A stretch of 64,000 nt of DNA, from contig ONIL01000005.1 in the NCBI GenBank assembly GCA_900317835.1, positions 1-64,000 on the forward strand, written 5' to 3'. The position numbers and the translations under genes are program-made. Each line of letters opens with the position of its first letter. Within the stretch, counting starts at the first letter, position 1. This DNA is from an uncultured Prevotellaceae bacterium (GTDB taxonomy: Bacteria; Bacteroidota; Bacteroidia; Bacteroidales; Muribaculaceae). Below the pieces are notes generated by a model that worked only from the letters and a program-made list of their open reading frames with translations, had not been told where the DNA came from and did not search any database. Of this stretch, positions 42,324 to 56,405 are shown one piece after another.

Positions 42324-43076
42324 TCAATCGATATGGTTGGCCTGCATGTACTCGATGACACGTTGCAGGTCGTTAGGAGTGTCCACAGCGATGGTCTCGC
42401 TCTGCACCTCGATGTAGTGCACGTGATAGCCATTCTCGATAAAGCGCAGGATCTCGATGTCCTCAACCGCCTCAACCTTTGCCTTGCCGTACTTCTTGCC
42501 GTAGTCGCAATAGAATTTCAGTGCCTCGGGCTTGAAGCCATAGACGCAAACCTGCTTATAGTACTTCACATTGATGTTTCCCTTGGGGAAGGGAGCAGCC
42601 GAACGGGTCAGGAACACGCCACGCCCGTCGGCGGCAGCGATGACCTTCGGTACCGTGAAGTTAATCAAATCCACAGGGTCATGAATCTCGGTCATCAGGT
42701 TAGTGACCATAATGCCCGTGTCGGGATTCTCCAGATAAGGCACGATGGCAGCCTTGATGGTCTCGGGCTCGATCAACGGCTCATCGCCCTGGATGTTCAC
42801 ATACAGGTCGGCTGGCACTTTCTCGGCCACCTCACCGATGCGGTCGGTTCCAGTGCGGTGCGACGTGGATGTCATGATCACCTTGATGCCACGCTCTTGA
42901 CACGCATTGAAGATGCGATCGTCGTCGGTAGCGACATAAACCTCACTGAATTCTTTCACCTTCATGGCCTGAAGATAAACGCGTTCAATCATGAGCTTTC
43001 CGCAGATTTCGGCCAAGGGCTTGCCCTCAAAGCGCGAGGACTGATATCGGGCTGGTATGACAGCAACTATCTTCAT
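42324..43076 (-). CDS. divergent KdsB-type CMP-sugar (3-deoxy-2-keto acid) synthetase
   Basis: This 250-residue cytidylyltransferase activates a 2-keto sugar acid with CTP. It has the nucleotide-binding start VAVIPARYQSSRFEGKPLA, a VATDDDRI block, SHRTGTDRIGEV and NIQGDEPLIEPETI. The parts that define canonical KdsB are altered, though: RSAAPFPKG replaces the RSxIPYxRG segment, and the AE-LEQLRWLENGY block is changed to AVEDIEILRFIENGY. A second, canonical KdsB is encoded at 55641. Together with the adjacent aldolase and DUF115 genes, this copy may activate a sugar acid other than Kdo. It is the last gene of the three-gene operon, 11 bases after the aldolase. Confidence 0.85.
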   Translation of the reverse strand: MKIVAVIPARYQSSRFEGKPLAEICGKLMIERVYLQAMKVKEFSEVYVATDDDRIFNACQERGIKVIMTSTSHRTGTDRIGEVAEKVPADLYVNIQGDEPLIEPETIKAAIVPYLENPDTGIMVTNLMTEIHDPVDLINFTVPKVIAAADGRGVFLTRSAAPFPKGNINVKYYKQVCVYGFKPEALKFYCDYGKKYGKAKVEAVEDIEILRFIENGYHVHYIEVQSETIAVDTPNDLQRVIEYMQANHID

Positions 43077-43087
43077 GATAATATATC

Positions 43088-44626
43088 TTAGAGGAATTGG
43101 TAAATTGACTCAACGTGCAAACTGCGGTACAAGCTAGGGGTGAGCGAAATCAACCGCATCGAAGTATAGTCCTCGAACTGACTGAACAGCAAGCGGTTCT
43201 CGTTGCTCAGTTCCATCTCCTTGTCGGACAGCACTTGACCGCGATACCCGTCATAACCCACAATGTAGATGCTCGACGGGGACATCTCGATAGCCGTTTG
43301 CAGGGCCACAGTGGTGCAGGAGTCCTCAAAGTCGCCCGTAAAGCTGATCTTAGGCAACTCAAAGGTCCTCTTGCCGGCATAGTGTGGAACGTCGGTACCC
43401 ATCGTGCGGGGATATGGCGGCAACACACACGTTCCGTTAAATTCAGCTACAGGAACCGTCTTCTCCATTCGTTTTGCCTCATTGCCCACAAGCACATAGA
43501 ACTTGTCGTTCTTGACATGCTTGAACAGCGACGCATGACGTGCCGTGGCAAAGACGATAGCCATCTCAGGATGTGTATTCACAAATTCGGTAATCGCCTC
43601 AATATGGTCAGCAACCGTCTCGCCACCGCCGATGATGAGGACCTCCTTGTAGTGGTTCACGTCCAAGGTACCGAAATGGGCATTATCGGCAAGATGATTG
43701 CGCTTGTTGTCAACGGCACGGACGATACTGTTGAAACTGTAGGCCCTGTTCATCGACCAGGCCATGACTTCCTTCTGCGGGATGGAATTGGCTCCTGAAA
43801 TCATGTAGGGCAAGGAAGTGCCCCAGTTGTACTGGCGCCACAGCGGCATGAAGGCCGTGATGACGTCGCCCAGCACGTTGAAGTCCACCTCCAGCCCCTG
43901 GCGGTTGAGGCACGTGAGCAAGAGCTCGGTATTCAGGTTACCCGCGCCGCGTCCCATTCCCAGGATGGTGCCATCGACCGACACGACGCCGCACTTGATG
44001 GCGGTGAGCGTGTTGATCAGGGCCATCTGCAGGTTGTTGTGGCCATGGAATCCCAGGGGGCAATCGGTCACCTCACGAATGGCGGCGATGGTCGCAGCCA
44101 CCTCGTCGGGCATCATGCTGCCGAAAGAGTCCACCATGTTGAAGATGGTGACGACACCCTTGAGCTGGGCCAACCGCGGAATCAGGTTCTCGTACTCGGA
44201 CCACTTTGACATGTACATGAGGTTGAAACCCACCTCAAAGCCATCCTCGCGGATGTGCCTGGCCAGGTTGATGGCGCGGTCCAGGTTCTTGGGGTCCACG
44301 GCAATCCTGATCATGTCGACGATGCCGTGCAGCGGCTCGGTCAAGTTAACGAGGTCCTCGACCCGGGTGCTCTTCTCGTTGAGCATGACAGCCACCTTCT
44401 TGGTACACCTGTCATGGATGCGCTTCAACGACGAAACCGGGCAGTAGCCATATTCGCCCATATAGGTCTTGTCGGGGTTGTTGCGGTAGCCCACCTCGAT
44501 GTAGTCGATGGGCAGGCTGTTCACGGCCTCGATATAGGTGCCGACGATGTTGGGCGAGAAATCCCAGTCGGTATAGTACCCGCCGTCGCGCAGGGTACAG
44601 TCCATTATCTTATATTTGTTTGCCAT
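43088..44626 (-). CDS. HMGL-like pyruvate aldolase fused to a DUF115-like domain
   Basis: This 512-residue protein has an N-terminal DRE-TIM aldolase barrel (about 1-300): MDCTLRDGGYY with Asp9, the metal-binding GFHGHNN (His194, His196) and DGTILGMGRGAGN. This is the layout of 4-hydroxy-2-oxovalerate aldolase and HMG-CoA lyase. Residues about 325-512 form a second domain with VLIIGGGETVADHI and IYIVGYDGYRG, which mirror the FIIGTGPSLT and VYLLGIDHNYS segments of the adjacent DUF115 protein. The architecture suggests synthesis of an unusual 2-keto sugar acid by aldol addition of pyruvate. The substrate is unknown. Confidence 0.8.
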   Translation of the reverse strand: MANKYKIMDCTLRDGGYYTDWDFSPNIVGTYIEAVNSLPIDYIEVGYRNNPDKTYMGEYGYCPVSSLKRIHDRCTKKVAVMLNEKSTRVEDLVNLTEPLHGIVDMIRIAVDPKNLDRAINLARHIREDGFEVGFNLMYMSKWSEYENLIPRLAQLKGVVTIFNMVDSFGSMMPDEVAATIAAIREVTDCPLGFHGHNNLQMALINTLTAIKCGVVSVDGTILGMGRGAGNLNTELLLTCLNRQGLEVDFNVLGDVITAFMPLWRQYNWGTSLPYMISGANSIPQKEVMAWSMNRAYSFNSIVRAVDNKRNHLADNAHFGTLDVNHYKEVLIIGGGETVADHIEAITEFVNTHPEMAIVFATARHASLFKHVKNDKFYVLVGNEAKRMEKTVPVAEFNGTCVLPPYPRTMGTDVPHYAGKRTFELPKISFTGDFEDSCTTVALQTAIEMSPSSIYIVGYDGYRGQVLSDKEMELSNENRLLFSQFEDYTSMRLISLTPSLYRSLHVESIYQFL

Positions 44627-44650
44627 AATTGTGAGGGTTGATTAACATGG

Positions 44651-45406
44651 TTAATGGTTGAGAACGGCGTCCAGGTCAACGCGCTCATAGGCCTCGAGTT
44701 TGCCGCCGCGGGTAGCATTATAGATGGTGAAGCCGGGATGGGCGTCGGCAAACTTCCTCGCGGTCATATAGGCCATGGTGCTCTCGACGATGCGCGGCAG
44801 GTTCATGCCCTTGTTGGTGGCCTTGGAGCCTTCAAAGTAGTCTTTCACGTCATCCTTGATGACGGGCACGCCCTTCTCATTCAAACTGATGGAATAATTG
44901 TGGTCGATGCCCAACAGATAGACCTCGCTGAAGCCCATGTAATGGGCCAACTGCATCGCGCCATAGGTCACCGTGAAGCCCTGGCCCAGGAAACGGTTGA
45001 GACGGGTGCTGAAGTCGGCGTCGCCGGGATAAAAATCCTTGTGGCGCAGGACAAAATAAGAGAAGTCGTCGCGCCGGCCGAATGTGGCCATGGCCTCCAG
45101 GGGCAGGAACACGTGACGGCACTGCACCGTCTTGATTTCCTCCTGGAATTTATCAATCAGCTTGAAGTCCTGATTGACGTAATAGGTCGGGCGCCAAGTG
45201 GTTTTAGGGAATATCTCGAAGATGCGGTTCGAGCCAAAGGTGATTTCTCCCTTCAGCTTCTCCAAATCCTCGACCGTCAAGCTGGGTCCCGTGCCGATGA
45301 TGAAGCACCGCTCCCCCTTGTGCTGGCCCTTGAACCGCTTCAACTCGTTGCAGACTGAACGATTCAGTATATATTGTTTTATAGAGTGCAGGTACGATCT
45401 GTCCAT
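44651..45406 (-). CDS. DUF115 (6-hydroxymethylpterin pyrophosphokinase MptE-like) protein
   Basis: This 251-residue cytoplasmic protein has the DUF115 hallmark CFIIGTGPSLTVEDLEKL (GTGPS at 38-42), FGSNRIFEIFPKT and a C-terminal YGAMQLAHYMGFSEVYLLG with the metal-type GIDHNY. DUF115 domains occur in archaeal MptE and in bacterial Maf proteins, which transfer nonulosonic acids to flagellin. That link makes a glycosyltransfer or nucleotide-sugar role plausible here, not pterin synthesis. It is the first gene of the operon with a good promoter at 45510-45480. Confidence 0.82.
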   Translation of the reverse strand: MDRSYLHSIKQYILNRSVCNELKRFKGQHKGERCFIIGTGPSLTVEDLEKLKGEITFGSNRIFEIFPKTTWRPTYYVNQDFKLIDKFQEEIKTVQCRHVFLPLEAMATFGRRDDFSYFVLRHKDFYPGDADFSTRLNRFLGQGFTVTYGAMQLAHYMGFSEVYLLGIDHNYSISLNEKGVPVIKDDVKDYFEGSKATNKGMNLPRIVESTMAYMTARKFADAHPGFTIYNATRGGKLEAYERVDLDAVLNH

Positions 45407-45479: not shown

Positions 45480-45510
45480 CAAAGATAATGTAAATTGGCG
45501 GCTAAACAAA
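45480..45510 (-). promoter_or_regulatory. promoter of the DUF115-aldolase-KdsB operon
   Basis: On the minus strand TTTG (45510-45507), a 19-base spacer and TATCTTTG (45487-45480) match the consensus exactly. The leader to the ATG at 45406 is about 65 nt. Confidence 0.8.
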
Positions 45511-45938: not shown

Positions 45939-48900
45939 TTAACGGATGATCTTGCTCGTGGTGGTCGAACCATCGCTGTAGCGGGTAATCACGATGTTAA
46001 GACCATCGAACGGCTGGCTTGACTGCATACCCTGAGCGTTCACATAGGTTACGCTTACAGGAACTGCACCAGCGCCGAACATTTCCCTGAGGGCGGTTTC
46101 AATGTCATCAGCCGAACCCTCACCCTGAACGATGTAGTATTCCTCAGCATCGTCGGGATCGTCACCCAGCCTTGATCCAGTGTTATCGCCTTCAGTAACC
46201 ACCTTCTTGTAGTACAAGCGAACCACGAAGGTTACATCATCATAATTCACATATTCATCAGCGGGGCCACCGAACGAGCACTGGAGAACGCCGTCACCGG
46301 GATCCCACTTATCGGTGATCACAGCCTGGGTCGATTCACTGTATTCAGTACCCAGCAGGTGCGGCAGCGGCAGCGGGCCAAGGTCGATGAGTGAACCGGT
46401 CTCGGAATCGGTCGAGAAGGCACGAGCGGCAGGATAGGTACACCATGCACGATACATGAACGGCACGTAGGTGCTCTTATCTTTGTCGTTCGCTATCGTC
46501 ATCGCAGGAACTGTACCATTGATGGTGATCGTGGGAATATATACGCAATACTCCTGATTGGTTCCGGGAACTTTCCATTTACCCCAAGCACTGCCATTGC
46601 TCCTCTCAATCTCGATGTTATAGGGCTCAACGGCACCCAGGGTCTCGCGCTTGATGTCCGAGCCGTAGGAGTTGTTCTTGCCGTCACCGCGGGCTGAGTT
46701 AATACCCAAAGTCCAGATCACAGGCACATAGGAGATCTCGTTGCCTTCCACACCTTGCACATAGTTGGTGTCAAGACGCTCAACGGTCTCGTTACCGACG
46801 CGGTCATACCTGGGAGTTACACCCGAGGTCTCGCTCTCAAACAGGAAGAACTGGCTATAGGAGCCGACCTGTTCCTCAAACTGCTGGAGCTTAGACACGC
46901 GGTGGGTATCGTCAATCACGGGATAGTCTTCACCCACATTGCCACGGTACAGGTTATAGTACAGCACATTACCGTCGGGTGCGACGTCATACGTCATCTT
47001 GGAATTGATCACCTGAGGCTTCAGATGCATGTCAGTATCAGTGATAATCTGATTATAGGTGTAGAAGCCTTGCATGGTCGAGCTCGTCTTATACACAGGG
47101 ATGGGCACGGGAGTACTCTTCTTAGGCTCGCCACCAGGTTGGTCTTCCCTCAAAGTATAGATATAACCATCAGGGTGCCTATTGTTGAGGGTTGATTCCG
47201 TGAACTGGTCAAGCATCATGATGTCTTCACCGTCTTTCAGGAAGCTGAGCAGGGTATTGGGATCGTCATAGGTACCATCCATATCAACCCAACCTGAGCC
47301 GGCAGGAATAGTGATCTGTGCGGTTGTGGGATCGCTCTCGTCCTTACCGCTTTCCTGGGCGGTGGCGCTAACGGTGATGGTGTTGCTCACATAGCCGCAA
47401 GGCACGGTGATGCTTACCTCGCCCTCGCCGCTCACGGGATCGCAGCCGGGCACATTCAGGGTCACGGTTCCGTTACCAGTAGCGGTGATGGTCACATACT
47501 CGCCGTCGCTAGAGGAGGTAATCACGGGAGGTGCGGTCTGTTCCCCGTTCAACTTAGTGATGGTGAAGGTACCGTCGTTGGCGTTGATGGTGATTCTGTA
47601 AGTACCGCCCTCCGGGAAATGGATGGGGTCATCGTCATACAGGTCAATGTTACCTCCAGAACTATTGCCTTGCATCACCCAGTTGCCGTTGCTGCTGGGA
47701 CCGAAGACATCTCGGCTGTTCCACGGATTGTTGTTACCCAACAAGCGGGCAAACAGGATATAGTTGTTGGCGTTTACCGTGATAGTAGCGGTATAGGTGC
47801 CATTGGCGTAGCTCATTGGGTGGGTATTATCGCTGAAGTTCCAACCATTACCAAAGTCACCCACAATGTACAAGTCTGCAACATAGTTCACGGTGGCCGT
47901 GGCGTCAGTAGCACCGGTGGCGCTTGCGGTCACGGTGGTGGTGGCGCTCAGGTCGCGGCCCGTGTAGGTCACGCTCACGTTGCCACCCGTGTTGCCGAGC
48001 GAGGTGGGATTCACAGTCCAGTCGTTATTGGCTGCGCTGACGTTGATGTTGCCATCGATGTCAGTACCGGTGACGGTCAAGGCACCAGCTGCGGCATCGT
48101 TGATCGTCTGAGTAGCGGGAGAAATCTCAATCGTGGGATTCGTAGTGTCGATGGTGAAACTTGTGGGCACAGCTGCCGATTCACCAAGATCATAAACTGC
48201 GCTGACAGCACAATTATAGGTGCCGTCTTCCAGGTTATTGAAGGTGTAGGTGAAGGTGTTGGCATCCACATTACCCACGAGCTCGCCTTCCAAGTAAATA
48301 TTATAGGATACGGGCATCACAGGTGCAGGTGTATAAGTGATGTCATCGATCATCAAGCCGAAAATGTCTACTGAAGTGTGGCGGATGGCAAAATACTTGC
48401 TACCAGCAGGCAGAGTCACAGAAACTTGAGTCCAAGTGGTGCTTGAGCATTGTCTTGTTGACCCCACGATGGAGAAACTTGAGTAGCTATTATTGGTTGA
48501 TGAAGTGAGAACCTCATAGGTCTCATTACCATATTGCGTTGTGATTTCCCTTACCCAGAAAGTGATGGTCTGAGCCTCACCGCTCAACTCGGGCGAGATC
48601 AGCCAGTGGTCTGTAGCATTTCCTGACGTGGGGACAGTCGATAACATATACTGGGCGCCAGTGAGTGCCGCACCATCAGTCCATGCGGGATCTGTCAAGT
48701 TATAAGCCATGGGATAGAAGGATGCAGGACCACTTGAATTAGGCCAAGAGTGTCCACTAAGACCGTAGTTATAACCACCACTGGAATCATAGAGCGACCA
48801 CTCGCCATAAGCACCTGTGTGGGCGCTGGCAGTGATGCCACCAGTTTGGAATGCAGGGAACACACCGAAGTTTTCAAAACTCTCGGTAACATCAGATGCT

Positions 48901-49913
48901 GTGATAGTGGGAGCATTCCAGGTCATGGTTCCGCTATTATCCACAGATGTGGCTGCTACATTCTGGGGTGCAGGCAAAATGTTGATTGCAGTCTGTGCAC
49001 TGGCAGTGTTGTTGGTAGCGTCATCATCATTAAAGACAAGTTGAACACCAAAGTTGACTGTCTGACCACCTTGAGCCTGTGTCGTGGCATATTGAGTGGT
49101 GTATGTAGCAAAAGCACCAGCGGCCAGTGAATTGGTTACAGTCTCAGTGTGAATCACGTTCCCGTTTGCAGTGATGTTTACCGTGTAGTTTTTCTCAGGA
49201 AGGATTTCTGAGTTAAAGACTCTTGCGGTAACAGTGGCGGTCTCACCAGCATATACCGATGTGGGGGCAGCAAGTTCTACTGACAAGTCATGAGGAGGAT
49301 TGTCCATGACTGTAATAGAGAAGTTGTCAACAAACAAATTATACATATCGGGATCCGAAATGGCATGAATACCGATGTAGTAATTGCCTGATTGTTCTAC
49401 TCCGAATGATTTGGTGAGCGTCGCGTGTGAGGAGGAGGTAGCAGAAACTTGAGTAGGTTGAATCAAAACGACACCATTTTCAAGTGCTGTAGCTGTATGT
49501 CCATCGGATAGTAATACTTCAATTCCCTCAGGGTAATTTGCACTACTACACCAAGTCTCGATAGAAAAGGTGTAAGCCTTTCCGACTTCGAGTGTGAGAG
49601 GTGCAGTCACCAGCCAGTCATCAGCAGAATTGGTGGAGTGATACGAATATTGTGCGTAACCACTGGAGTTTCTCGTCCAAGTTTTGGTATCATTATTAGC
49701 ATTGATGACCTCCCACCAATTGAAAAGGGTAGATGAACCGAAGTTATTGGTGTAAGGCGGGGTCACCGGAGTCGTGGAAGCCCTTGACGGACCCTTGGCA
49801 GGTGCAGTTGAAAGCTGTGCAGTCGTGTTATGACGATACGCTTTCTTGGTTTGCGCGTTAAGCGACAGGGTGAGCAGTGCGAGGACTGCAGCAAAAATAT
49901 ATATCTTTTTCAT
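45939..49913 (-). CDS. large secreted multidomain protein with T9SS-type C-terminus
   Basis: This 1324-residue protein has a signal peptide (MKKIYIFAAVLALLTLSLNA) and a string of beta-domains: two choice-of-anchor-J/MAM-like domains (about 50-200 and 340-530), CARDB-like (about 205-310), Ig-like (about 590-690 and 800-890), then a long region (about 900-1250) without a recognised family. The C-terminus (NIVITRYSDGSTTTSKIIR) resembles a short type IX secretion sorting domain. It would therefore be exported and perhaps surface-attached. No enzymatic motif is seen. The gene starts 14 bases after the stop of the secreted protein at 49928 and almost surely shares its transcript. Confidence 0.75.
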   Translation of the reverse strand: MKKIYIFAAVLALLTLSLNAQTKKAYRHNTTAQLSTAPAKGPSRASTTPVTPPYTNNFGSSTLFNWWEVINANNDTKTWTRNSSGYAQYSYHSTNSADDWLVTAPLTLEVGKAYTFSIETWCSSANYPEGIEVLLSDGHTATALENGVVLIQPTQVSATSSSHATLTKSFGVEQSGNYYIGIHAISDPDMYNLFVDNFSITVMDNPPHDLSVELAAPTSVYAGETATVTARVFNSEILPEKNYTVNITANGNVIHTETVTNSLAAGAFATYTTQYATTQAQGGQTVNFGVQLVFNDDDATNNTASAQTAINILPAPQNVAATSVDNSGTMTWNAPTITASDVTESFENFGVFPAFQTGGITASAHTGAYGEWSLYDSSGGYNYGLSGHSWPNSSGPASFYPMAYNLTDPAWTDGAALTGAQYMLSTVPTSGNATDHWLISPELSGEAQTITFWVREITTQYGNETYEVLTSSTNNSYSSFSIVGSTRQCSSTTWTQVSVTLPAGSKYFAIRHTSVDIFGLMIDDITYTPAPVMPVSYNIYLEGELVGNVDANTFTYTFNNLEDGTYNCAVSAVYDLGESAAVPTSFTIDTTNPTIEISPATQTINDAAAGALTVTGTDIDGNINVSAANNDWTVNPTSLGNTGGNVSVTYTGRDLSATTTVTASATGATDATATVNYVADLYIVGDFGNGWNFSDNTHPMSYANGTYTATITVNANNYILFARLLGNNNPWNSRDVFGPSSNGNWVMQGNSSGGNIDLYDDDPIHFPEGGTYRITINANDGTFTITKLNGEQTAPPVITSSSDGEYVTITATGNGTVTLNVPGCDPVSGEGEVSITVPCGYVSNTITVSATAQESGKDESDPTTAQITIPAGSGWVDMDGTYDDPNTLLSFLKDGEDIMMLDQFTESTLNNRHPDGYIYTLREDQPGGEPKKSTPVPIPVYKTSSTMQGFYTYNQIITDTDMHLKPQVINSKMTYDVAPDGNVLYYNLYRGNVGEDYPVIDDTHRVSKLQQFEEQVGSYSQFFLFESETSGVTPRYDRVGNETVERLDTNYVQGVEGNEISYVPVIWTLGINSARGDGKNNSYGSDIKRETLGAVEPYNIEIERSNGSAWGKWKVPGTNQEYCVYIPTITINGTVPAMTIANDKDKSTYVPFMYRAWCTYPAARAFSTDSETGSLIDLGPLPLPHLLGTEYSESTQAVITDKWDPGDGVLQCSFGGPADEYVNYDDVTFVVRLYYKKVVTEGDNTGSRLGDDPDDAEEYYIVQGEGSADDIETALREMFGAGAVPVSVTYVNAQGMQSSQPFDGLNIVITRYSDGSTTTSKIIR

Positions 49914-49927
49914 CGCTTATATCGTGT

Positions 49928-52042
49928 TTAGTTGTTATTAGGATTATAATTAGGATCAACTTCACCATCGGAGCCATAGCCAGGCTCGATTTCCTGGTTG
50001 TTAGCATCCCTGTACTTGATGCGGTAGTAGGCCTTGTTGCCGTCCATTACCAGCTCAAGATCAATAACAGGAGTTTCGTTGCGATACAGGGTCAGCGTGC
50101 GGCCAGTGGTGCCCACATTGCCGGCGCTGATGCCTGCCTGGCCAGGAAGACTCAGCTTGTGTGGAGCCAGCCAGTTGCGATAGTAGTTCACCTCGGTGTT
50201 CTTTGTGTCCTTGGTCACGTAGTCGCTCTCGTAGCGCCACCACTGCAGACCAATGAAGTCGGAGGTGCCCGGAACGGTCACGTTGTCAGGGGCGCTCTGG
50301 GCAAAGAAGATCTCGGGATTGGTAGCATCGCGGGGTGTGGCGACCACAAAGTAGTGGATTTCATAGGCCGTAGCACCGGCTTCATATTCATAACCATTGT
50401 CGGCACTGTACCAAGTGGTCTGATCGGTGCCATTGGGGGTCACGCAGATGGTGTCATTGCCGATGACCTGATACAGATAATAGGTCTGGGGGATGCCCTC
50501 GCTATGGGCAATTGCATCGAGGTTGTCCTCCCAAGTTACCGTCGTCGTGTAGAAGCCCTCTGTGGACGAAGGCGCAATATCGGCAAAGAGGTCAACCATG
50601 TACATGCCCACGGTGGGCTGATGGCCTAATACATAGGTACGCCAGTCACTGCTCGTACCACCGCGGAAGTCAGGAATATAGAGCACCAAGCTGCTCACGC
50701 GGTTCTCGGAGGTTCCCTGCTTTCCAGACATCGAGAAGTAATGCTGGAAAAAGTTGACACTATTACAGTCATGGACAATGTTATAAGTCACACCTGACCT
50801 CATCTTTTCATAGAAGTCGACATAATCCAGGGTGTCGGAGTCAGCGGCCGGGCTGAACTCCTCATACATGCTATAGAAAGGAGCTCTATCATAATGGGGC
50901 AGAGCGTCCAACGAACTCAAGAATGCCATTTTGCCTTTACTGATAAAGTAGAAACGGTTCAAGTCGCCAGTGTAGGCAAACAGCGTACCGGCATCGCTCG
51001 TTTCGGTGTTGACGCGCAGGCCGTCGGTCAAGAGTTGAACCTCCTTGATATAGGTCTGGAAATAATTCTTCAAATCAGCAGCATTCACAGTGGTGTCCTG
51101 TATGCGCTCTAACGGATTATTGTTGAGACCGTCATAGAGCTTAACCAGCAATACGGTGTAGCCATTCTCTTTGGGTGGCGTGATGGTGCCAGGGATTATA
51201 TAGCCGATTGTCGAGTATTCCGTATCAGAATAAGTCAGCTCCTGTTCAACATAATCAAATGTAGGAGTACCAAGAGCCAAAACCTCCCCATTGTAAGCAG
51301 GAGATGAGGGTTCAGCTATAACGATAACCTCGACAGATCCAGTCTCATTCTCGAGAAATTCTCCAGGTAATCTAACACCACCTCCACTGCTTGAAGTCGT
51401 ATACCAATAGGCGTTGTCGCCGCTGCCGCCTGTAGACCATGAGCTAGGGAAAGTGACGTTGTTGGGTGTGAGAGGCTCAAGTAACTGCTGTCCATTTCCA
51501 TCAAGTATGTAAATCTTGACTACATGCACTTGGTTAGAACTTACATAAATGGTTACGCCTTCCTCGTAATTGGTTCCGATAATGTCCCAACCATACTGGA
51601 TGGTCTGGTATGGAATGTCGCAATTCTGGGGAGCAGAGAACTTAGTACCAGGGATATTCTCATCTGTGTACACGCGTTTTACCAAAGCGATCATTCCATC
51701 AACATCGGTAAAAGGCTTGGTAATCAATTGGCTACCACCATTCCAAGTAACGTAAGGATTGGGAAGTTCCTGTTCATACCATGATTTTTTATGAACGGCT
51801 GTAGCGTTCAAATCGAAGTTCTGGGAGCGTTTCGGGGCTTCGGATCTCAGGCTTCCATGGTGCCTGTTGGCCGTAGCCTGAACAAGATCATTGGCATGCT
51901 TGGATGCAATAACCTTTTTAGGCATGGTGCGCATATTCATGTGTCGTGTTTCCACATTCGGCAACAATTGTGCCTGCGCACTACTCGTCCAGCCCACCGC
52001 TAGCAGCAGGCCGAACAACAAAGTTGTTAGTTTCTTTTTCAT
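49928..52042 (-). CDS. large exported protein of unknown function
   Basis: This 704-residue protein has a signal peptide (MKKKLTTLLFGLLLAVGWTS, cleavage near AQA). Most of the chain is beta-rich with several Y/S/G-containing strands. Some segments, such as SGDNAYWYTTSSSGGG, look like linker or surface loops, and the end is Asn- and Tyr-rich (VDPNYNPNNN) with no sorting domain. I do not recognise the family. It is followed at 14 bases by the 1324-residue secreted protein. The pair probably forms a surface system; the function is unknown. Confidence 0.72.
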   Translation of the reverse strand: MKKKLTTLLFGLLLAVGWTSSAQAQLLPNVETRHMNMRTMPKKVIASKHANDLVQATANRHHGSLRSEAPKRSQNFDLNATAVHKKSWYEQELPNPYVTWNGGSQLITKPFTDVDGMIALVKRVYTDENIPGTKFSAPQNCDIPYQTIQYGWDIIGTNYEEGVTIYVSSNQVHVVKIYILDGNGQQLLEPLTPNNVTFPSSWSTGGSGDNAYWYTTSSSGGGVRLPGEFLENETGSVEVIVIAEPSSPAYNGEVLALGTPTFDYVEQELTYSDTEYSTIGYIIPGTITPPKENGYTVLLVKLYDGLNNNPLERIQDTTVNAADLKNYFQTYIKEVQLLTDGLRVNTETSDAGTLFAYTGDLNRFYFISKGKMAFLSSLDALPHYDRAPFYSMYEEFSPAADSDTLDYVDFYEKMRSGVTYNIVHDCNSVNFFQHYFSMSGKQGTSENRVSSLVLYIPDFRGGTSSDWRTYVLGHQPTVGMYMVDLFADIAPSSTEGFYTTTVTWEDNLDAIAHSEGIPQTYYLYQVIGNDTICVTPNGTDQTTWYSADNGYEYEAGATAYEIHYFVVATPRDATNPEIFFAQSAPDNVTVPGTSDFIGLQWWRYESDYVTKDTKNTEVNYYRNWLAPHKLSLPGQAGISAGNVGTTGRTLTLYRNETPVIDLELVMDGNKAYYRIKYRDANNQEIEPGYGSDGEVDPNYNPNNN

Positions 52043-55640: not shown

Positions 55641-56405
55641 TTAATGTGAGTTGCGCAGGTATTCCTCGGCGCGAGCTAGATCCTCTGGTGTGTCGATGCC
55701 GATGGTCGCCGTGGTGGTGATGCCCGCCTTGATGGTGTAGCCGTTCTCGAGCCAGCGCAGCTGCTCCAGCGACTCGGCAAGTTCAAGGGGTGATTGTGGC
55801 AACCGCGTGATGGCTTCGAGCACTGCGGCGCGGTAGGCATACATGCCCACATGGGTATAGTATTGGGTCATGGCTGGCCACTCGGCACGCTCCTTTCCCC
55901 TAACATAGGGAATCACCGAGCGAGAGAAATATCGGGCGCGCATCTGGCTGTCCAACACCACCTTAGGGCTGTTGGGATTCTCTAGCTCGCTGTAGGGGCG
56001 ATTGGAGGCAAACGGGCGCACCAGCGTGGCAATGTCGGTAGTCTTGTCGTTAAAGCAGGCCATGATGGCGCGCAGCTGATCAGGCTGGATAAACGGCTCA
56101 TCGCCCTGGATGTTGATGATGACATCCTCGTGACCACCGTTCTTCAGGTAGGCCTCCTGGCAGCGGTCAGTGCCGCTGCGGTGCTCGGTGCTCGTCATGA
56201 TCGCCTTGCCACCGAAAGCCTCCACTGCCTGCATGATGCGGTCGTCGTCGGTAGCGACGATGACACGGTCCAATACCAGGCTCACCTGACGATAAACCCG
56301 CTCTATCATCGTCATGCCGCCCAGCATGGCCAGCGGCTTGCCGGGAAACCTCGTCGAGGCATACCTCGCCGGGATAATCCCAATAAATGTCAATTCCTGT
56401 TCCAT
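55641..56405 (-). CDS. kdsB: canonical 3-deoxy-manno-octulosonate cytidylyltransferase
   Basis: This 254-residue enzyme activates Kdo with CTP for lipopolysaccharide core synthesis. It has GIIPARYASTRFPGKPLA, VATDDDRIMQAV, EHRSGTDRCQEA, NIQGDEPFIQPDQL and the KdsB-specific SRSVIPYVRGKERAEW. LAESLEQLRWLENGY and GIDTPEDLARAEEYL follow. It is much closer to typical KdsB than the divergent copy at 42324. It lies between the LUD protein gene (26 bases) and the GH2 gene (39 bases). Confidence 0.95.
   Translation of the reverse strand: MEQELTFIGIIPARYASTRFPGKPLAMLGGMTMIERVYRQVSLVLDRVIVATDDDRIMQAVEAFGGKAIMTSTEHRSGTDRCQEAYLKNGGHEDVIINIQGDEPFIQPDQLRAIMACFNDKTTDIATLVRPFASNRPYSELENPNSPKVVLDSQMRARYFSRSVIPYVRGKERAEWPAMTQYYTHVGMYAYRAAVLEAITRLPQSPLELAESLEQLRWLENGYTIKAGITTTATIGIDTPEDLARAEEYLRNSH

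Follow-up and report, generated by a model that had tools for sequence, protein, structure and literature searches.

What might be made by a three-gene operon that joins a stand-alone DUF115 protein, an aldolase fused to a second DUF115-like half, and a divergent cytidylyltransferase of the KdsB family? The operon lies in the genome of an uncultured Prevotellaceae bacterium, on the minus strand at 42324-45406 of the window, i.e., the whole stretch of 64,000 nucleotides that was analysed (contig ONIL01000005.1, assembly GCA_900317835.1). Its three genes, termed here genes 1, 2 and 3 in the order just given, are separated by intergenic gaps of 24 and 11 bases. From protein families, folds, gene linkage and an altered sugar pocket we infer, with a probability of about 0.72, that they build, activate and transfer an acidic 3-deoxy-2-ulosonic sugar other than 3-deoxy-D-manno-octulosonic acid (Kdo). 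An earlier note on this DNA had proposed a pathway for an unusual sugar acid activated with cytidine monophosphate (CMP). At the level of sequence that idea gains support from the DUF115-like nature of the C-terminal half of the fusion, and from a cytidylyltransferase gene downstream of all 35 fusions collected.

The DUF115-like nature of that half was proposed in the same note. In single-sequence scans the domain scored below the PF01973 gathering cut-off of 34.6 bits (13.0 bits with the whole protein, 16.6 with the domain alone), and weak PF01973 matches were found in the C-domains of 19 of 25 fusion members, the best with an E value of 1e-4. Profile-profile comparison (hhalign) of the C-domain with the family of the neighbouring DUF115 protein gave a score of 45.8, a probability of 87% and an E value of about 4e-6. 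The best of 100 column shuffles reached 23.7, and no score above 16.9 came from the aldolase domain, the reversed profile or any of 11 other gene clusters; on the shuffles and the 11 clusters a chance similarity was rejected. When the C-terminal half was modelled alone, with a predicted local distance difference test score (pLDDT) of 92.5, the top PDB match found by Foldseek was the Maf structure 5mu5 (E = 3e-5), the sole match below 0.001, followed by the archaeal HPPK 8sd5 (E = 0.0019). A sequence search of the PDB with the C-domain profile returned matches at chance level (best E = 0.26). The claim thus stands on both the profile score and the fold.

Gene 1 passes the gathering cut-off of PF01973/DUF115 (MptE-like), with 50.8 versus 34.6 bits. 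Its model had a pLDDT of 73, with residues 122-143 and most of 170-204 below 50, and its PDB matches with E values below 0.001 were Maf 5mu5, HPPK 8sd5, the sialyltransferase CstII 1ro8 and no others. Gene 1 therefore shares both fold and family with the Maf/MptE-like DUF115 proteins (5mu5, 8sd5), and the fused C-domain shares their fold. Unlike that family, the domain occurs here as a single domain of 251 aa or fused to an aldolase, with no tie to flagellin seen; gene 1 also fails the model for PseD, the three-domain Maf/PseD flagellin glycosyltransferase (10.3 versus 670 bits).

Aldolase-DUF115-fold fusions are present patchily in Bacteroidota. Full-length fusions occurred in 6/393 genomes of a sample of the order (the window's own included), 9/395 of the phylum and 4/345 of the class, the samples overlapping. 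A pattern scan of GTDB genomes, in which the nearest named relatives of the window's genome were uncultured Prevotellaceae, Muribaculaceae and other Bacteroidales, yielded 19 fusion loci besides one from Megasphaera (L053). Altogether, 35 distinct loci were compared: the window, L034-L052, L078-L081, L129-L137, L140 and L141. L051 and L052, which are 99.8% identical, were both counted (merging them gives 34 loci), duplicates were left uncounted (L082, the same DNA as L047; L142, the same as L041), and L053 and L120, with a different aldolase subfamily, stand outside the 35.

A cytidylyltransferase gene was found downstream on the same strand in 35/35 of these loci, as the immediate neighbour in 28. 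For the other seven it lay within about 1.9 kb, beyond an HpcH/HpaI aldolase gene (L050-L052, L130, L131 and L133) or two other genes (L129). L140 and L141 were located after the pattern had been recognised, and both conform. Neighbours were scanned against our own reference proteins at an E value of 1e-5 (1e-4 in the round that gave L140 and L141), so that more divergent enzymes could escape; PF02348 itself was confirmed only in the window, L042, L050, L131 and L140. A DUF115 gene of the window's type lies upstream in 10/35 loci (the window, L034-L041 and L140), all of them with a KdsB-type enzyme. The co-occurrence expected elsewhere by the earlier note was thus found, for all three genes in those ten loci, window included.

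As a control, we took 15 of 23 non-fusion matches, in which the aldolase is a single domain (L083-L097). Neither a cytidylyltransferase nor any of the other partners lay beside any of the 15 within the scanned distance, the contig ending just downstream in L084 and L091; L086 had a weak HAD match farther away. These aldolases, of about 317 aa and 33-35% identical to the N-domain of the fusion, come from several Bacteroidales families, and an open reading frame (ORF) of about 100 aa often lies just upstream.

The linkage bears on the possibility that the aldolase is catabolic, or yields a hydroxy-keto acid that is not a sugar, and stands next to cytidylyltransferases through a general clustering of surface-glycan genes. 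Most pyruvate aldolases are catabolic, and the nearest characterised families use simple 4-hydroxy-2-oxo acids. However, a clustering of this kind does not readily account for a linkage that is invariable among the fusions, that holds even in the window, which showed no polysaccharide genes, and that was not seen for the single-domain relatives; we regard this explanation as improbable.

We then considered the activating enzyme. Gene 3 is KdsB-like, yet falls under the cut-off of the KdsB equivalog TIGR00466 (151.5 versus 155.2) while passing the broader KdsB subfamily models NF009905 and NF003952. Among linked relatives, L037 (149.4), L040 (144.2) and L080 (131.1) also scored below, and L034 (155.8) just above. 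The genome has a Kdo set separate from the operon, i.e., one KdsA over cut-off, one WaaA-type match and a second, canonical KdsB at 55641-56405 that passes TIGR00466 (213.4). Because this canonical enzyme exists, gene 3 was rejected as the housekeeping KdsB. Its best PDB match is 1gq9, which we take to be KpsU; 1vh3 and 3duv are presumably both Haemophilus influenzae KdsB.

The sugar pocket of gene 3 is changed, with Q175, C177 and I209. Six KdsB active-site residues are named in a docking study in which KdsB was modelled on 3DUV (PMC12058783). Five of the six named there fit the 1vh3 chain (Q98, R157, H185, E214 and Q215), while K74 could not be placed. Gene 3 retains Q98, R157 and E214, and has Gln in place of H185 and Ile in place of Q215. 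The first three residues are retained in the 12 linked KdsBs that were aligned and used for the tree, to which L140 (Gln and Leu) and L141 (Gln and Ile) were added separately. Of the resulting set, 14/14 have Gln at H185 and Cys at a nearby Gly, and at Q215 13 have Ile and L140 has Leu, whereas 13/13 unlinked KdsBs (11 from Bacteroidota, 1gq9 and 1vh3) retain the His, Gly and Gln. In the tree a single branch (support 100/99) divides the 12 linked from the 13 unlinked proteins, and several branches are long. The two replacements suggest that the substrate is probably not Kdo, and the simplest meaning would be that the linked KdsBs form one dedicated subfamily for one non-Kdo sugar acid.

These data speak most directly to a different proposal, that of a second, surface-glycan CMP-Kdo system like that of E. 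coli capsules with KpsU, in which the KdsB paralogue would form CMP-Kdo, the DUF115 proteins would transfer Kdo, and the aldolase would give Kdo or an unrelated keto acid. The match of gene 3 to 1gq9 fits this proposal, as does the Kdo set of the genome (KdsA, the canonical KdsB and the WaaA-type gene); in addition, the modelled product of an E. coli K15 capsule ORF matches Maf, and the authors of that study predict that it transfers Kdo (PMC7387560). Nevertheless, the two Kdo-pocket residues are altered in 12/12 linked and 0/13 unlinked KdsBs, 1gq9 among the latter, 21/35 loci have a PseF/NeuA-like or similar enzyme where KdsB would stand, and the aldolase would duplicate KdsA. We therefore consider a CMP-Kdo system unlikely, and return to the non-Kdo acid.

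The N-terminal part of gene 2 passes the Pfam HMGL-like cut-off (92.9 versus 29 bits), and it is the sole HMGL-like match in the genome. Its residues 5-317 match PDB 3dxi ("putative aldolase", which we take to be Bacteroides vulgatus BVU_2661) nearly end to end (E = 6e-128); that structure is of an aldolase part only, corresponding to the N-terminal part of the fusion. A literature search on the names of 3dxi, covering titles among openly licensed PMC texts, gave no related paper. R13, D14, H194 and H196 are invariant across the 35 fusions, and the last three are presumably the metal ligands, so that gene 2 has both the Pfam match and the metal-site Asp and two His of the HMGL-like/DRE-TIM metallolyases. 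With the 4-hydroxy-2-oxovalerate aldolases (DmpG/BphI) it has in common the HMGL-like barrel and the metal-site residues, but its C-terminal domain is different and it lies far below the TIGR03217 equivalog cut-off (109.1 versus 286 bits). LeuA and homocitrate synthase were rejected as identities because the scores were far under the cut-offs of those models.

We propose that, in a first step, the metal-dependent HMGL-type aldolase would join pyruvate to an aldose or aldose phosphate, giving a 3-deoxy-2-keto sugar acid; it would thus occupy the position held by the phosphoenolpyruvate (PEP)-dependent KdsA or NeuB in known pathways. A phosphate, if present, would be removed, which the HAD phosphatase of 16/35 related loci could do. 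In a second step, the KdsB paralogue with its altered pocket would form the CMP derivative. Finally, the stand-alone DUF115 protein, perhaps together with the fused domain, would take the sugar acid off its CMP carrier and attach it to a surface glycan or protein, as their fold suggests. A Maf enzyme is described as using CMP-N-acetylneuraminic acid (CMP-Neu5Ac) and CMP-Kdo as donors, transferring Neu5Ac and Kdo (PMC11339370).

Several observations weigh against this pathway. A phosphatase gene is missing from the window unit, and the DUF115 gene of the window's type is absent from 25/35 fusion loci. The catalytic base of DmpG, a His, is not present in the aldolase, which has Tyr17-Tyr18 at that site in 35/35. 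The distribution is patchy: in same-genus genomes a full-length fusion was found in 3/36, counted among the stronger aldolase matches. The distant fusion L053 (Megasphaera) has no nearby match to the KdsB/NeuA references, and adjoins DegT-family and thiamine pyrophosphate (TPP) enzymes. Moreover, parts of the gene 1 donor motif are absent from the fused C-domain, which has GGG where gene 1 has GTGPS and no counterpart of Asn60 of gene 1, for which reason it may not be a transferase.

This last point would also suit a narrower alternative, which alters the third step and is compatible with the remainder of the pathway: the fused C-domain might be a nucleotide-binding or scaffold domain that hands what the aldolase makes on to the cytidylyltransferase, only separate transferases acting on the acceptor. 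The retention of the C-domain in 35/35 fusions, even near other families of CMP-sugar transferases, and its second-best fold match to HPPK, a pyrophosphokinase, point the same way. On the other hand, the top fold match is Maf, and the 35 fusions share invariant C-domain residues (G333-G335, E383, R407, D459 and others), which suggests catalysis. We hold the scaffold role to be a serious possibility, though rather short of an even chance.

Among the 35 loci, 14 encode a KdsB-like cytidylyltransferase (the window, L034-L041, L080, L129, L136, L140 and L141) and the other 21 one that is PseF/NeuA-like or similar, with L131 encoding a more divergent PF02348 protein. A tree of 33 fusions (L140 and L141 left out) requires at least three changes of cytidylyltransferase type, and this swapping of subfamilies beside the same aldolase suggests that they act on its product. 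A HAD-type gene lies downstream in the 16 loci mentioned above, an HpcH/HpaI aldolase gene occurs in six, and L141 carries a DeoC-type gene. A PfkB gene like those of 2-keto-3-deoxygluconate (KDG) kinases, under the KDG-kinase model cut-offs, occurs in 2/35 loci and hints at a 2-keto-3-deoxy hexonate as the sugar acid; in both it overlaps the end of the cytidylyltransferase gene (L079:10580-11608, L080:10570-11598). In L037-L039 a pyruvyl transferase gene and a FrhB-type gene lie between the DUF115 and aldolase genes, L038 having a flippase-like gene as well (Pfam was run on L037 and L038).

Candidate transferases near other fusions include GT52 (L042, and L043 by similarity), GT29 (L050) and a polysialyltransferase, PF07388 (L141). 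Further PF01973 proteins were found in L051, with the same DUF115 type in L052, in L134 (just under cut-off), in L048 and L078 (weak) and, on the opposite strand, in L045. The GT52, GT29, polysialyltransferase and DUF115 families either include known CMP-sugar-dependent enzymes or resemble such enzymes.

The earlier note had linked the operon to nonulosonic acids through DUF115/Maf. The likeness to Maf stands; the genome (3.07 Mb, 96% complete) contains no match to NeuB (PF03102), which makes classical nonulosonic acids unlikely in this organism, and sialic, legionaminic and pseudaminic acid made via NeuB were rejected on that ground. Known nonulosonic pathways run through NeuB/PseI/LegI, NeuA/PseF and Maf/DUF115. 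They share with the fusion loci the PseF/NeuA-like cytidylyltransferase of 21/35 (the PseF model was matched, under cut-off, where scanned) and, in some, Maf/DUF115, GT29, GT52 or polysialyltransferase-type genes, but the window's genome lacks the NeuB match and its enzyme is of KdsB type. The Kdo pathway proceeds through KdsA, KdsC and KdsB, with KpsU in capsules. With the pathway proposed for the present loci it has in common a condensation, a HAD phosphatase (in 16/35 loci), CTP transfer by a KdsB-family enzyme and a CMP-sugar transferase; it differs in that here an HMGL-family pyruvate aldolase would replace the PEP-dependent KdsA, the KdsB pocket is altered and a DUF115 domain is fused.

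The enzyme families are each known; what seems not to have been described is their combination, together with the dedicated KdsB subfamily: among the matches listed in a search of openly licensed PMC texts, limited to titles and the beginnings of abstracts, no description of the aldolase/KdsB/DUF115 combination or its sugars was found. More tentatively, and with odds we put somewhat below even, this may be a third general route to CMP-ulosonic acids in Bacteroidota, in which a metal-dependent pyruvate aldolase, in place of a PEP-dependent synthase, makes a new acid, the transferase for its final attachment is part of the aldolase polypeptide, and either a dedicated KdsB subfamily (Q-x-C/EDIEILR-like) or PseF/NeuA-like enzymes activate it, according to lineage. 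The encounters of bacteria with hosts, phages and other bacteria are shaped by acidic sugars, among them sialic acid, pseudaminic acid and Kdo, and to our knowledge the known biosynthetic routes to such sugars begin with PEP-dependent synthases. If correct, a pyruvate-aldolase route would imply a class of surface sugars chemically unseen so far, the fusion together with a Q-x-C/EDIEILR KdsB would be a genetic marker for the Bacteroidota that produce them, and a possible aldolase-transferase might be usable for synthesis.

The earlier account of one promoter followed by three genes also holds, all three ORFs and the promoter being present (Table 1). The promoter pattern, which we take to be the Bacteroidetes consensus, has six matches in the window versus 0.55 expected from shuffles; a generic scan of the window for sigma-70 promoters and terminators gave nothing useful. 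The ORFs of the window KdsB and of the L038 aldolase were set by hand, since longer antisense ORFs overlie both; that over the KdsB gene, at 42333-43091 (+), has 252 aa.

Table 1. Coordinates of the operon, its protein domains and its promoter within the window
Feature	Position	Strand	Evidence
Gene 1, stand-alone DUF115 (PF01973), 251 aa, proposed CMP-sugar-acid transferase	44651-45406	-	PF01973, 50.8 bits; fold matches
Gene 2 (P0002), aldolase-DUF115-fold fusion, 512 aa	43088-44626	-	
Gene 2, N-terminal HMGL-like pyruvate-aldolase domain, about residues 1-312	43691-44626	-	Pfam; 3dxi; 4-hydroxy-2-oxovalerate aldolases
Gene 2, C-terminal DUF115/Maf-fold domain, residues 310-512 as modelled	43091-43699	-	Profile comparison and fold
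Gene 3 (P0001), divergent KdsB-family cytidylyltransferase, 250 aa	42324-43076	-	KdsB models; pocket residues
Bacteroidetes-type promoter, TTTG-N19-TATCTTTG	45480-45510	-	73 bases ahead of the gene 1 ATG

A cation-efflux gene converges on the operon from the opposite side. Among 11 flanking genes (38050-60587) scanned with Pfam there was no glycosyltransferase; the matches were to cation efflux, a cleaved-adhesin domain, pseudouridine synthase, PASTA, beta-galactosidase, LUD, VTT, esterase and amylase, and two genes had none. The window unit thus does not lie within a polysaccharide locus, as the earlier note had held; its wording does not extend to L042, L050 and L141, which adjoin glycosyltransferase genes. 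In L035 and L036 the DUF115 operon is immediately preceded by a canonical KdsB gene and a gene (1032 aa) of the same beta-galactosidase type as in the window. In the window, large genes at 45939-49913 (with the cleaved-adhesin domain) and 49928-52042 separate the operon from the genes of these types, and could be surface proteins acquired at this site.

Three further arrangements were seen elsewhere. In L045 (9424-11770) a second pair of DUF115 and PseF/NeuA-like genes lies on the opposite strand close to the fusion, beside a gene that presumably encodes a KpsF/GutQ-isomerase-like protein. In L053 (4752-11506) an aldolase with a DUF115-like C-terminal half is clustered with DegT-type, TPP-type and, as we would name them, RfbF/RfbG-like enzymes, possibly a branched CDP-sugar pathway on the same aldolase architecture. 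Finally, L120 (7314-11099) has in a row PseF/NeuA-like, KdsB-like, Megasphaera-type aldolase fusion and HAD-type genes; the KdsB-like gene, directly upstream of the fusion, has Phe and Glu in its pocket, unlike both the Kdo and the window types.

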